Assembly (NCBI GenBank): GCA_021154885.1
Contig: JAJKHS010000143.1
Location: 124,001-188,000 of the forward strand
Source: Thermoanaerobaculum sp.
Lineage (GTDB): Bacteria; Acidobacteriota; Thermoanaerobaculia; Multivoradales; UBA5704
Direction of reading: 5' to 3'
Length of the DNA: 64,000 nt
Position 1 is the first letter of the stretch; every line of letters starts with the position of its first letter. This document shows, piece by piece, positions 6,896 to 63,200 of this stretch. Both the position numbers and the translations under genes were made by a program. The notes under the pieces are model-generated. The model had not been told where the DNA came from. It saw nothing but the letters and a program-made list of their open reading frames with translations, and made no database searches.

Positions 6896-6902
6896 GGGCG
6901 CC

Positions 6903-7069
6903 CATACACGCTAACTTTGCTTAGGGTAGGGGCGGGTCTGGACGGGTGGGAGGGGGCGCGACCCGCCCTGCAACGGCGAGATCGACCTCCCCAGGGCGGG
7001 TCGAGCCCCCAACCTGCCCGCCCAGACCCGCCCCTACCCTAGGCAGCGAGGCCAAAGTTAGCGCCTATG
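6903..7069 (+). repeat. Long palindromic repeat R1, copy 1
   Basis: This is a 167-bp near-perfect palindrome. The outer arms pair CGCTAACTTTGC with GGCCAAAGTTAGCG and then TTAGGGTAGGGGCGGGTCTG with its complement; the inner arms GGGGGCGCGACCCGCCCTG and CAGGGCGGGTCGAGCCCCC also pair. Related copies occur at 46461 and 54835. It has no coding capacity; it looks like a MITE- or REP-like nonautonomous element and would form a very long hairpin if transcribed. Confidence 0.8.
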
Positions 7070-7150
7070 GTAGGCGCGCATCCTCCCAACCTGCGTAGCG
7101 TCTCTGGCAGACCCACCGGGCTTTATGGTAGAGTCCGGGCAGAACAAATT

Positions 7151-8086
7151 ATGGGTCAACACGATCTCAGTTATCGCCTTTTCTTCTCCCACCGGCACAT
7201 GACCCAGGATCTCCTGCAAGAGATCGTGGCCGAGCGATGGGTGGAGCGGATCGACTTCGACTCCGGCGAGTTGGCCGACCCTTCCTACGTTTCCGACAAG
7301 CACGAGAACCGCGAAAGCGACCTCGTCTGGAAGTTCCGGCGCCAGGATGGAGAAGAGCCGGTCTACGTGCTCCTGGAGTTCCAGTCGCGGCCCGATCCCT
7401 CCATGCCGGTCCGTTTCATGGGCTACGAGAGCCTCTTCTACCAGAAGCTGTTGGCCGACAAGCCCGTAGCCGCCTGGAGAAAGCTGCCGCCGGTCATCGC
7501 TGTCCTGGTCTACAATGGATGGGAGCCGTGGCACGTGGCGACGGACCTCGGTTCTTTGATCGGAGAACTGGACGTCTCGGCGGCGACCTACCGGCCGCAG
7601 TTGCGGTACCGGCTGGTGGACGAGTCGGCCTATCGGCGGGAGGATCTGGCATCGCTGAACAGTCCGGTGGCTGCCCTGTTCCTCATCGAGATGAGCCGCG
7701 ACGGGCAGGAGGTCTGCGCGAGCCTTCGTCGCCTATGGCAGACGATTCCGCCGGATGAGGTTTCCCTGCGGCGGGCTTTCGAGACCTGGCTGCGGAAGGT
7801 CATCCTGCCGCGTCTCGGAGTGTCTTGGGAGGAAACCGCAGAACTCACTATGGAGGAGGTGGAAACCATGCTGGCTGAAAGCATCGACCGTTGGAACCGT
7901 GAGCTCCTAGAAAAGGGCCGCCAGGAGGGGGAGGCCCAAGTAGTGCTTCGGTTACTCCGATTGAAGTTCGGTCCTCTGGAGCCGGAGACCGAGGAGCGGG
8001 TGCGATCTGCCGATACGGACCGCCTCCTGGAGTGGGGCGAGCGAGTTTTGACCGCCCAAAGTCTCCAGGACGTCTTCCGGGATTGA
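7151..8086 (+). CDS. Rpn-family nuclease (recombination-promoting nuclease/putative transposase)
   Basis: The 311-residue protein has an N-terminal PD-(D/E)XK domain of the Rpn type: Asp57 in ESDLVWK, then Glu76-x-Gln78 in VLLEFQS, followed by the conserved MPVRFMGYESLFYQ. The C-terminal 70 residues are a DUF4351-like module with one KGRQEG repeat and the signature SLQDVFRD. ATG 7151 is preferred because earlier starts fall in repeat R1. Rpn proteins are toxic DNases; in E. coli they are antagonised by a small protein translated from within the same gene and act against phage. Here the C-terminal module has its own ribosome site (see 7868) and is followed by further copies. Confidence 0.8.
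   Translation: MGQHDLSYRLFFSHRHMTQDLLQEIVAERWVERIDFDSGELADPSYVSDKHENRESDLVWKFRRQDGEEPVYVLLEFQSRPDPSMPVRFMGYESLFYQKLLADKPVAAWRKLPPVIAVLVYNGWEPWHVATDLGSLIGELDVSAATYRPQLRYRLVDESAYRREDLASLNSPVAALFLIEMSRDGQEVCASLRRLWQTIPPDEVSLRRAFETWLRKVILPRLGVSWEETAELTMEEVETMLAESIDRWNRELLEKGRQEGEAQVVLRLLRLKFGPLEPETEERVRSADTDRLLEWGERVLTAQSLQDVFRD
7868..8086 (+). CDS. Internal C-terminal product of Rpn gene (RpnS-like)
   Basis: Within the nuclease gene, AGGAGGTGG at 7854-7862 lies 5 nt before ATG 7868, which is in frame with the nuclease. This site would yield a 72-residue protein beginning MLAESIDRWNRELLEKGRQE. The same Shine-Dalgarno-ATG pair heads each stand-alone copy downstream, where it must be the start. 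By analogy with RpnS it could bind and inhibit the nuclease. Internal initiation is inferred from sequence only. Confidence 0.6.
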   Translation: MLAESIDRWNRELLEKGRQEGEAQVVLRLLRLKFGPLEPETEERVRSADTDRLLEWGERVLTAQSLQDVFRD

Positions 8087-8139
8087 TCCAGCTCAAGGGG
8101 GATGAAGCCGCAGCCCTCACTATGGAGGAGGTGGGAACC

Positions 8140-8394
8140 ATGCTGGCTGAAAGCATCGACCGTTGGAACCGTGAGCTCCTGGAAAAGGGCCGTCAGGAAG
8201 GTCTTCAAGAAGGCCGCCAGGAAGGTCGTCAGGAGGGGGAGGCCCAGGTAGTGCTTCGGCAACTCCGATTGAAGTTCGGTCCTCTGGAGCCGGAGACCGT
8301 GTATCGGGTGCGATCTTCCGATCCGGACCGCCTTCTGGAGTGGGGCGAGCGAGTTTTGACGGCCCAAAGTCTCCAGGATGTCTTCCGGGATTGA
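8140..8394 (+). CDS. Stand-alone Rpn C-terminal module, copy 2
   Basis: An 84-residue protein starts at ATG 8140, preceded by AGGAGG at 8126-8131. It is a diverged duplicate of the last 72 residues of the nuclease, beginning MLAESIDRWNRELLEKGRQE and ending AQSLQDVFRD. It differs mainly in having about four tetrapeptide (E-G-R/L-Q) repeats where the nuclease has one. It carries no nuclease domain. It lies 53 bp after the nuclease stop, in a different frame. Candidate inhibitor or dimerisation partner of the nuclease; alternatively a decaying duplication, although the frame and start signals are intact. Confidence 0.65.
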   Translation: MLAESIDRWNRELLEKGRQEGLQEGRQEGRQEGEAQVVLRQLRLKFGPLEPETVYRVRSSDPDRLLEWGERVLTAQSLQDVFRD

Positions 8395-8418
8395 TCCACT
8401 CTGGAGGAGGTGGACACC

Positions 8419-8931
8419 ATGCTGACTGAAAATATCAACCGTTGGACTCGCGAGATCCGAGAAGAAGGCCGGCAGGAGGGGGAGGCCCAAGTGGTGCTTC
8501 GGCTACTCCAATTGAAGTTCGGACGTCTGGAGCCCGAGACCGTGTATCGGGTGCGATCTGCCGATCCGGACCGCCTCCTGAAGTGGGGCGAGCGAGTCTT
8601 GACGGCCCAAAGTCTGCAGGATGTCTTCCCACCTCATGAGGAACCCGCCACACTGACTCTGGAGGAGATGGAAACCATGCTGGCTGAAAACATCGACCGT
8701 TGGAACCGTGAGCTCCTAGAGAAGGGCCGCCAAAAAGGCCGCCAGGAAGGTCGCCAGCAGGGCCGCCAGGAGGGGGAGGCCCGGCTGGTGCTTCGGCAAC
8801 TCCAATTGAAGTTCGGGCCTCTGGAGCCCGCGATCGAGGATCGGGTGCGATCTGCCGATCCGGACCGCCTCTTGGAGTTGGGCGAGCGAGTTTTGACGGC
8901 CCAAAGTCTCCAGGATGTCTTCCGGGACTGA
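8419..8931 (+). CDS. Fused tandem Rpn C-terminal modules, copies 3 and 4
   Basis: A 170-residue protein starts at ATG 8419 behind AGGAGG (8405-8410). It contains two more modules in one frame: residues 1-73 (one EGRQEG repeat, ending SLQDVF) and about 87-170 (about four repeats, ending AQSLQDVFRD), joined by a PPHEEPATL linker. Module 4 retains its own site, AGGAG at 8663-8667 before ATG 8677, so an 84-residue product could also be made. The linker may have arisen by loss of the stop of module 3, since the other modules end RD-stop. No catalytic domain is present. Confidence 0.62.
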   Translation: MLTENINRWTREIREEGRQEGEAQVVLRLLQLKFGRLEPETVYRVRSADPDRLLKWGERVLTAQSLQDVFPPHEEPATLTLEEMETMLAENIDRWNRELLEKGRQKGRQEGRQQGRQEGEARLVLRQLQLKFGPLEPAIEDRVRSADPDRLLELGERVLTAQSLQDVFRD

Positions 8932-54541: not shown

Positions 54542-54588
54542 TCGCCACAAGGCGATGACCCGCGCGAGGCGCGCTGAGTCGCCCCCAC

Positions 54589-54828
54589 TCGGGAGGACCT
54601 CCCTCACGAGTTGGTACAGGGCCCGCCCCTCTCGGGAGGAGCTCTCCCCCGAGCAGGTACGGGCCTCTCCCCACCCGGGAGGAGCTCCAAACGGGCGGGT
54701 ACGGGCCTCTCCCCGCTCGGGAGGGAGATCCAAACGAACGGGTACGGGCTCTCCCCGCTCGGAGGGAGCTCCGTACGAGCGGGTACGGGCCTCTCCCCAC
54801 TGAGGAAACTTCCCGGACGAGTGGGGGA
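54589..54828. repeat. Minisatellite of about 42 bp
   Basis: About five and a half direct copies with 41-43-bp spacing, each containing CGGGAGGAGCTCC-like and GCGGGTACGGGCCTCTCCCC segments. Because 42 bp is 14 codons, several frames stay open with 14-residue periodicity (RAGTGLSPLG), but the spacing of 41-43 would shift any frame, so coding is unlikely. It lies between the broken HEPN gene and repeat R1 copy 3. Confidence 0.7.
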
Positions 54829-60249: not shown

Positions 60250-63200
60250 TCAATCGCATTTCTCAGGTCCGGGCAACGCCTCGCAGGTCTTCCGGTAGGG
60301 CTTGCCGGCGCCAATATAGTTTCGCCATTCGTCACAGGTCAGATTTCGGTTGGCTCTGCGGCAAGCCTCAGCTCTGAGGACGTCCAAGTCCAAGGCATCA
60401 CCCAAGTCCCACAGAATGACGGTGTGGTTCTCGCTCGCCAAGGCCAGTCGTTTCCCGTCCGGGCTGAAGGCGACGCTGAAAACCCTACCTTTGTCTCCCG
60501 CCAGCGTGGCCAGCGGCTTGCGGCTATTCATGTCCCACAGGATGGCGGTCCCGTCCCAACTCGCCGAAGCCAGCCGTTTCCCGTCCGGACTGAAGGCCAC
60601 GCTCTGCACCAAACCCTTGTGATCCCGCAATGTGGCCAGCGGCTTGCGGCTGTCCACGTCCCACAGGATCACGGTCTTGTCAAAGCTCGCCGAGGCCAGC
60701 CGCTTCCCGTCCGGGCTGAAGGCAACGCTTATAACCCCGTCCTTGTGTCCCACCAGCGTGGCCAGCGGCTTGCGGCTGCCCACATCCCACAGGATCACAG
60801 TATTGATCTTGTCCCGGCCCGTTGAGGCCAGCCGCTTCCCGTCCGGACTGAAGGCGACGTCTTGGACCCTTGCCCCGTGCCCCTCCAGCGTGGCAAGTGG
60901 CCTGCCGCTGTCCAGATCCCACAGAATCACGGTCCAGTCCTCGCTCGCCGAAGCCAGCCGTCTCCCGTCTGGGATGAAGGCCACGCCAAGGACCGGTGCC
61001 TTGTGCCCTTCCAGCGTGGCCAGTGGTTGCCGGCTATTCATGTCCCACAAAATCAGGGTCCCGGCGTCGCCTGCCGAAGCCAGACGCTTCCCGTCCGGGC
61101 TGAAGGCGACGGCCAAGACCCGGCCGTTGTGCCCCTCCAGCGTGACCAGCGGCCTGCGGCTGTCTACGTCCCACAGGATCACGGTCCCGTCCCGGCTCGC
61201 CGAGGCCAGCCGTTTCCCGTCCGGGCTGAAGGCAACGCTGCAGACCACGCTCTGATGCCTCTCCAGAATGGCCAGCGGCTTGAGGCTGTCCAAATCCCAC
61301 AGGATCACGGTCTGGTCCACACTCGCCGCGGCCAGCCGCTTCCCGTCCGGGCTGAAGGCGACGTCAAAGATCGCGCCCTTGTGCTCTAGAGTGGCCAACG
61401 GTTTGCGGCTGTCCACGTCCCACAGGATTACTTCGTCACTCGCGGAGGCCAGCCGCTTGCCGTCAGGGCTGAAGGCGACGCTATTGACCCAATCCTTGTG
61501 CCCCTCCAGCCGAGCCAGCGGCTTGCGGCTGTCCACGTCCCACAGGATCACGGTCTTGTCCCGACTCGCTGAGGCCAGCCGCTTGCCGTCAGGGCTGAAG
61601 GCCACACTATAGACCTCGTCCTTGTGCCCCTTCAGCGTAGCCAGCGGCTTGCGGCTGTCCACGTCCCACAGGATCACGGTCTTGTCCAGACTCGCCGAGG
61701 CCAGCCGCTTGCCGTCCGGGCTGAAGGCCACGCTATAGACCTCGTCCTTGTGCCCCTTCAGCGTGGCCAGCGGCTTGCGGCTGTCCACGTCCCACAGGAT
61801 CACCGTATCGTCCGCACTCGCCGAGGCCAGCCGCTTGCCGTCTGGGCTGAAGGCGACGCCATAGACCGCGTCTGTGTGCCCCGGCAGAAACGCAGATAGA
61901 TGTGGGTGGCTCACGAAGCGCCGCAGCAACCCAGCCGACGCCTCGAGTGTCGGAGCGGCCCGAACGGTTTCCAGGTTGAGCAGAAGGGATAGGTCGTATT
62001 TGACATCCTGAACCCGATCTGCGTTAGCCATCAATTGCGTGATCTCAGCCTCTTTCAGCAACTTGGTGGCTTTCCACGTGGACCACCCGGCAAGCCCTGC
62101 GAGAACGATCACGACGAGCGCTCCTGCCAGCACGAGCGCCGCATTGCGCCGGTTGCGCCGCTGCTGCGCGAGGGCCGCCTCTTCGGCCTCGCGGGCGCGG
62201 CGGTTGTCGCGGCTCTCCTTAACCACGCGGGTCAGCACGTCGTGGGTCAGCTCCAGCCGGCGCACGCTCTGCCGCTCGTCCACCCGCAGCAGGCGGCTGC
62301 GGATCAGCGCGTCGAGCGCCTCGGAGGTGACGCCGGGCAGGGCCAGCGCGTCCTCCAGGGCGTGGCTGTCGCGATAGCCGCGCTCGGTGATGAGCTCGTC
62401 TTCGACGAACGTCCGCACGGCTGGATCGAGGCCGGCCATGCCGCGCTCGTAGAAGCCCGAGAGGATCTCGCGATCGGCGCCCTCCAGCAGCGCGGGTGTG
62501 ATGCGGTCTAAGGGTGGCTCCGCCTGCTGGCGCTTGTGGTTCAGCTCGCTGCACACCACGCTGAGCAGCGCCGGATCGATTTCGATCCTGGGGGAAATCG
62601 CACGGATCGACGAATCGTTTTTCCAGGCGAGCCTGATGATCCGCAGCGCGACGTCGTCGTCGACCAGCGCTCCGCCCGCGCGGGTGATCACTTCGTAGGC
62701 TTGGTCGCCGCTCATCAGAAGCAGGCGAAAGCGGTTGTACATGAGGGAGGGCATCTGCCCCTTGAGCCCCTCCATCTCGGCTAAGAAATCTTCACGGAAG
62801 CTCAGCACCAGCTTGACCGTCGAGCGCTTGAAGTCGAAGCCTCTCGCCGCCGTGGAATCGGCTTCCAGCGCCTGCTGGACCGCGTCAGGCGGCCGGTTCT
62901 CCGCCAGGTCGCCCAACTCGGCGAGGAAGGCCGCCGACCGCGACCGGGCCGCCGTGGTCTCCTGGCCGGAGGTGAAGATCTCCTCGAATTGATCGAAGAC
63001 GATCACGGGCGTCACCGGGCGGTTTTTCGCGCTCCAGAATTCCGCGTCGCGCCGGTGGAAGAACGACCACAGGCTCTCCTCCTGGGTGGGCTGGGAAGCT
63101 TGGACCCGCTCGGCCTCGCACGCCGCCTGCAGCCCGCGAAAGACCTGCTCGCGCAGCGGCGGAGCCCCTTCGGCATGGTCGAGGCGCACGTAGACCGGCA

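Follow-up and report, generated by a model that had tools for sequence, protein, structure and literature searches.

A probable RpnL/RpnS toxin-antitoxin locus with tandem copies of the antitoxin module in an acidobacterial genome

In the window, the 64,000-nucleotide stretch of a Thermoanaerobaculum sp. contig that was analyzed here, an rpn gene is followed on the same strand by two open reading frames composed of three further copies of its own C-terminal module. We consider this to be probably a gene-within-gene RpnL/RpnS toxin-antitoxin locus of the phage-defence type, in which the antitoxin module has been multiplied in tandem together with its start. In E. coli, RpnS is produced from internal starts, has an antitoxin role and shows a specificity that depends on repeats, and RpnP2 protects against phage (Zhong et al. 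2023, PMC10327210). Neutralization and the specificity of repeat number (the register) were measured in E. coli.

The initial annotation proposed that an RpnS-like inhibitor had been multiplied into separate genes. The stand-alone origin is borne out by the copied Shine-Dalgarno (SD)/ATG signals, the intact frames and a second array elsewhere in the genome (contig C52), but the idea itself had already been published (PMC10327210). In E. coli, stand-alone RpnS genes, annotated as DUF4351, are known 3' of both rpnE and rpnC, in single copy (PMC10327210), and a description of arrays of several RpnS copies was not found in the literature searched (open-licence papers). Since this arrangement behind rpn is on record, only number, fusion and registers are new: the locus has three extra copies, a fused double module and two registers, in another phylum, and further copies lie in the second array (C52) and, singly, in a congener.

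The rpn gene and its module array

The rpn gene (7151..8086, forward strand) encodes a protein of 311 residues, in which Pfam finds a PD-(D/E)XK-type Rpn nuclease domain (Transposase_31, PF04754; E 3.8e-23, 82.6 bits against a cut-off of 21) and a C-terminal DUF4351 module (E 8.7e-10). The start at ATG 7151 was picked by means of the conserved MGQHDLSYR, and an in-frame ATG at 7067 is also possible. D57 and E76-F-Q78 are invariant in three orthologues, and both congeneric ones keep them unchanged. By analogy with the family, D57 and E76-x-Q78 would be the catalytic acidic residues of PD-(D/E)XK nucleases. With PF04754 present and these residues kept, the product was assigned as RpnL. The PADLOC defence models gave no match to RpnL, and its AlphaFold model was set aside because a pLDDT of 54 was too poor.

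Immediately 5' of rpn lies a long imperfect palindrome (6902-7070), a member of a MITE- or REP-like interspersed family with about 40 places in the genome (80 matches on both strands). Elsewhere in the window, we noted about twelve tandem repeats of 126 nt (60402-61882), which on the reverse strand look WD40-type, and five tandem units of 43 nt (54583-54801).

The intragenic RpnS module, M1, spans 7868..8086 (DUF4351 E 6.3e-11; alignment). Downstream on the same strand, the frame 8140-8394 holds one module, M2 (8124..8394 with its SD at 8124-8132 and ATG at 8140), and the frame 8419-8931 holds two. The first of these, M3 (8403..8631; SD 8403-8411, ATG 8419), has lost its stop codon and continues through a linker (8632..8676) into M4 (8677..8931), for which ATG 8677 is a possible start of its own. 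Pfam shows DUF4351 once in 8122-8394 (E 2.4e-9) and twice in 8410-8931 (E 1e-18), and no nuclease domain in either downstream frame. A repeat finder, unprompted, returned four direct-repeat copies with a unit of about 296 nt. The coordinates that had been given for the module and the two downstream frames were confirmed exactly, and the DUF4351-only matches confirm three extra modules without a nuclease domain, two of them fused in one frame. The mutual identity of M1 to M4 is 86-94% in DNA (ungapped core) and 75-93% in protein, far beyond chance, and the extra modules are 79-93% identical to the parent module M1.

The linker, PHEEPATLTLEEMET, corresponds to the connecting stretch between nuclease and module in RpnL (PEEVSAALTLEELET and LEEVSAELTLEEMET in the nearest orthologues, L019 and L020, respectively) and contains a second SD, GGAGGAGAT, at 8661-8669. 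In the AlphaFold model of the fused M3-M4 protein, each module forms a long helix and then shorter helices, with a pLDDT of about 80-88 in the cores and 70 overall; the model is of moderate quality, and the mutual placement of the modules is not confident (pTM 0.38). For an RpnS, a compact bundle of three helices with a long first one would be expected. A fold search of the PDB with this model gave no significant match and missed the RpnAS crystal structure, and a sequence search gave no match. Within the array, we found no terminators or sigma-70 promoters above chance and no Rfam families. The viral contigs searched held no relative of the module, and the plasmids searched gave one weak match. 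From sequence, frames and start signals, we infer that the array copies would be RpnS-like proteins.

Copied start signals and relatives of the locus

The strength of a start was taken as its pairing energy with the 16S tail and was compared over all in-frame ATG, GTG and TTG codons of the gene. The internal RpnS start (7852..7870, forward strand), which consists of GGAGGAGGT, a 7-nt spacer and ATG, has a duplex energy of -15.9 kcal/mol. It is the strongest in-frame start of rpn and belongs to the top 0.24% of the 1249 ATGs in the window. Since RpnL has a weak start of its own (-3.6 kcal/mol), the antitoxin is predicted to be in excess. The repeated unit begins 5' of the module and takes in GGAGGAGGT-N7-ATG, so that each copy would gain a gene start. 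The SD/ATG signals of M2 and M3 equal that of M1 at -15.9 kcal/mol, and that of M4 is weaker (-9.3 kcal/mol). The frames 8140-8394 and 8419-8931 are thus module frames 3' of rpn with start signals of their own, as stand-alone RpnS genes are. In a set of about 20 Rpn genes from the Thermoanaerobaculia, the majority carry an ATG or GTG at the first module residues with an energy of -9.3 kcal/mol or better; judged by this signal, the internal RpnS start is conserved among relatives in the class.

In the reading that we prefer, the antitoxin module and its internal ribosome-binding site would have been duplicated three times in tandem once the lineage had separated from its nearest sequenced congener, and the copied SD/ATG would let each module be made as a small, helical, RpnS-like protein. 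The predicted products are M2 alone, the M3-M4 covalent pair and perhaps M4 alone as well.

The genome of the window (8.2 Mb, 161 contigs) carries the array within a 216-kb contig. The nearest orthologues, L019 and L020, are two genes of a congeneric Thermoanaerobaculia MAG, 71% identical. In a tree, M1 to M4 cluster apart from L019 and L020 with a support of 0.995, so that the copies arose in the window lineage. The initial annotation had called for a search of relatives for orphan modules. L019 and L020 have no extra modules beside them; two other loci, one in the same genome and one in a congener, do have such modules. On contig C52, an Rpn gene is followed by an open module of 94 residues with an SD and then by a more diverged module of 128 residues with its own SD and a GTG start. 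The C52 parent and first orphan are 64% identical in amino acids (dN/dS 0.33, Fisher p 1.3e-4) and differ in repeat number. In the congener G002, a 72-residue module lies 29 nt past the stop of an Rpn gene, and a run of N crosses that Rpn frame.

Among 396 genomes of the phylum, DUF4351 was matched in 23, and several consecutive stand-alone modules were found above the cut-off only at the window locus; diverged arrays such as C52 fall below this screen, so that the count is a lower bound. Other orphan modules of the class with no adjoining nuclease (e.g., L031 and L155) were rejected as stand-alone RpnS, since they also match the Rpn part just before the module and look like N-truncated rpn genes.

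Several other features of these loci were observed. In L049 (G000:C52, 1480-3770), the stop of the last module coincides with the start of a ribbon-helix-helix-like ORF, and what looks by eye like a leftover of the 3' end of this ORF lies just past the rpn stop. In L044 (G003:C58), rpn is broken by TGA and the C-terminal 206 residues are intact, the antitoxin end outliving the nuclease end. Two full-length rpn genes stand in tandem in L009 (G000:C63:12496-14423), each with an SD-preceded GTG/ATG at the module start. Such whole-rpn arrays (PMC10327210; G000:C63) share tandem duplication with the window locus, but they duplicate the entire gene, whereas the window locus duplicates only the antitoxin module.

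Repeat registers and the comparison with E. coli

M1, M2, M3 and M4 have 72, 84, 72 and 84 residues, respectively (M3: 71 to the fusion point), and the length difference is exactly three four-residue (12-nt) units of the GRQE type in the first helix. M2 contains a 12-nt array of four units (8187..8234, forward strand; TRF period 12 at 8188-8234, protein alignment), M4 contains a similar array (8723-8774, forward strand; TRF period 12), and M1 and M3 contain one unit each. The repeats begin at about residue 17 of the module, within the 8-20 residues expected after an RpnS start. The orthologous modules in L019 and L020 are 88 and 92 residues long, and the rpn genes of the congener vary in repeat number. 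The alternation short-long-short-long may reflect a doubled short-long pair, but the site patterns among M1 to M4 are mixed, as expected under gene conversion.

In E. coli, the RpnS repeats sit in the dimerization helix, and RpnC-S with one extra repeat no longer counteracted RpnC, and the counteraction was restored once both partners had the repeat (PMC10327210). If the E. coli rule holds here, the resident toxin should be matched by M3 but not by M2 or M4, whose register differs from that of RpnL. The suggestion in the initial annotation that the copies could tune the control of one nuclease conflicts with this rule, which predicts no inhibition of the resident RpnL by M2 or M4. As we infer from Zhong et al. 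2023, RpnS would bind RpnL through the repeat-bearing first helix when the repeat numbers match. M3 and the RpnS from M1 would then restrain the present short-register toxin, and the longer register of M2 and M4 may represent an older state of the rpn gene or a fit to other Rpn toxins.

Many E. coli strains carry the known copy ypaA downstream of rpnE, and the RpnE-S product was detected by Zhong et al. (PMC10327210). The pairs rpnE with ypaA (rpnE-S) and rpnC with a second rpnC-S resemble the window locus in their internal RpnS start, in the stand-alone copy of the C-terminal module (PMC10327210) and in their four-residue repeat variation, with independent origins; they have one unfused extra copy, whereas the window locus, in the Acidobacteriota, has three in two frames, one of which is a double module. 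Intragenic RpnL/RpnS genes (e.g., RpnA, PDB 7TH0) share the domain order, the internal SD-ATG at the module start and the first-helix repeats, but the window locus also has the antitoxin multiplied as separate genes.

The register of the downstream rpnE copy equaled that of its parent in none of 21 E. coli strains (L102, L104-L123; 10 distinct length pairs), and none of three rpnC parent/copy pairs matched. Clearly, the E. coli rpnE copies show no tight register matching to their neighbors. Avoidance of matching was also considered and rejected: shuffling gave 1.2 expected matches in the 19 countable rpnE pairs against 0 observed (p 0.22), so that the zero is no evidence of avoidance. Most of the strains fetched annotate the stand-alone rpnE copies as incomplete or as pseudogenes. 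None of 5,359 E. coli genomes has more than two places with the 111-nt end of ypaA, which is the rpnE module end, and up to six rpnC-like places were found in one E. coli genome, which may be a multi-copy precedent.

Selection on the copies and competing explanations

The pairwise dN/dS among M1 to M4 is 0.2-0.5. For M2 and M4, both orphans, it is 0.21 (Fisher p 4.5e-5), part of which is perhaps inherited from the parent. The private changes of M3 (6 nonsynonymous, 3 synonymous) and M4 (2 and 1) are indistinguishable from neutrality, and several of those in M3 hit otherwise fixed residues. The check for purifying selection that had been proposed gives low pairwise values, but selection on the orphan branches alone was rejected as a claim because the branch-specific counts are too small. 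Chance alone would leave frames of such low divergence open in 50-80% of cases. A function of the window copies is therefore argued from retained start signals, frames and parallel loci rather than from a selection test.

It is possible, though in our view doubtful, that the copies are neutral by-products: an unstable gene end, subject to tandem duplication and slippage by 12 nt, would have yielded extra modules whose translation is accidental and whose sequences drift. The private changes of M3, the nearest orthologues without copies and the E. coli rpnE copies, with their register mismatches and pseudogene annotations, would agree with such an origin. However, the start signals of M2 and M3 are at full strength, the dN/dS between M2 and M4 is low, the C52 copies are still open at 64% and 42-48% identity, and an RpnE-S product exists in E. 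coli.

We regard it as unlikely that stand-alone RpnS protects against Rpn proteins of another repeat length (other alleles or horizontally acquired rpn) and not against its neighbor. The two registers of the array, the C52 first orphan that differs from its parent, the absence of matches in E. coli (0/21 rpnE, 0/3 rpnC), the change of specificity by a single repeat (PMC10327210) and the variable rpn genes of the congener favor such a role, but independent drift also gives mismatch, as the shuffling showed, and M3 is in the register of its parent. It is quite unlikely that stand-alone RpnS forms a repertoire of registers that guards against Rpn toxins of other lengths or records former registers of its own toxin, with the fused pair as a natural two-register antitoxin. 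A pure dosage effect, in which the extra copies just supply more antitoxin against the resident toxin, also appears improbable: the very strong SDs on M1 to M3 against the weak RpnL start would suit such dosing, but M2 and M4 are out of register by the published rule. An assembly artefact, conceivable in a perhaps metagenome-derived genome of 161 contigs (the congener is a MAG), is hardly credible, since the copies differ at 6-14% of core sites, the array lies inside a large contig, the genome contains another, independent array and the congener has one extra copy.

In the proposed RpnL/RpnS locus with a multiplied antitoxin, several RpnS-like proteins would be made, which may dose the resident toxin, guard against other registers, or drift. 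The two registers and the E. coli mismatches cast doubt on the idea that such copies simply neutralize the adjacent toxin, and their role is directly testable. The locus points to a route by which an antitoxin born within a toxin gene may become a separate gene: the ribosome-binding site moves along, and a module duplicated with it would be a ready-made gene.
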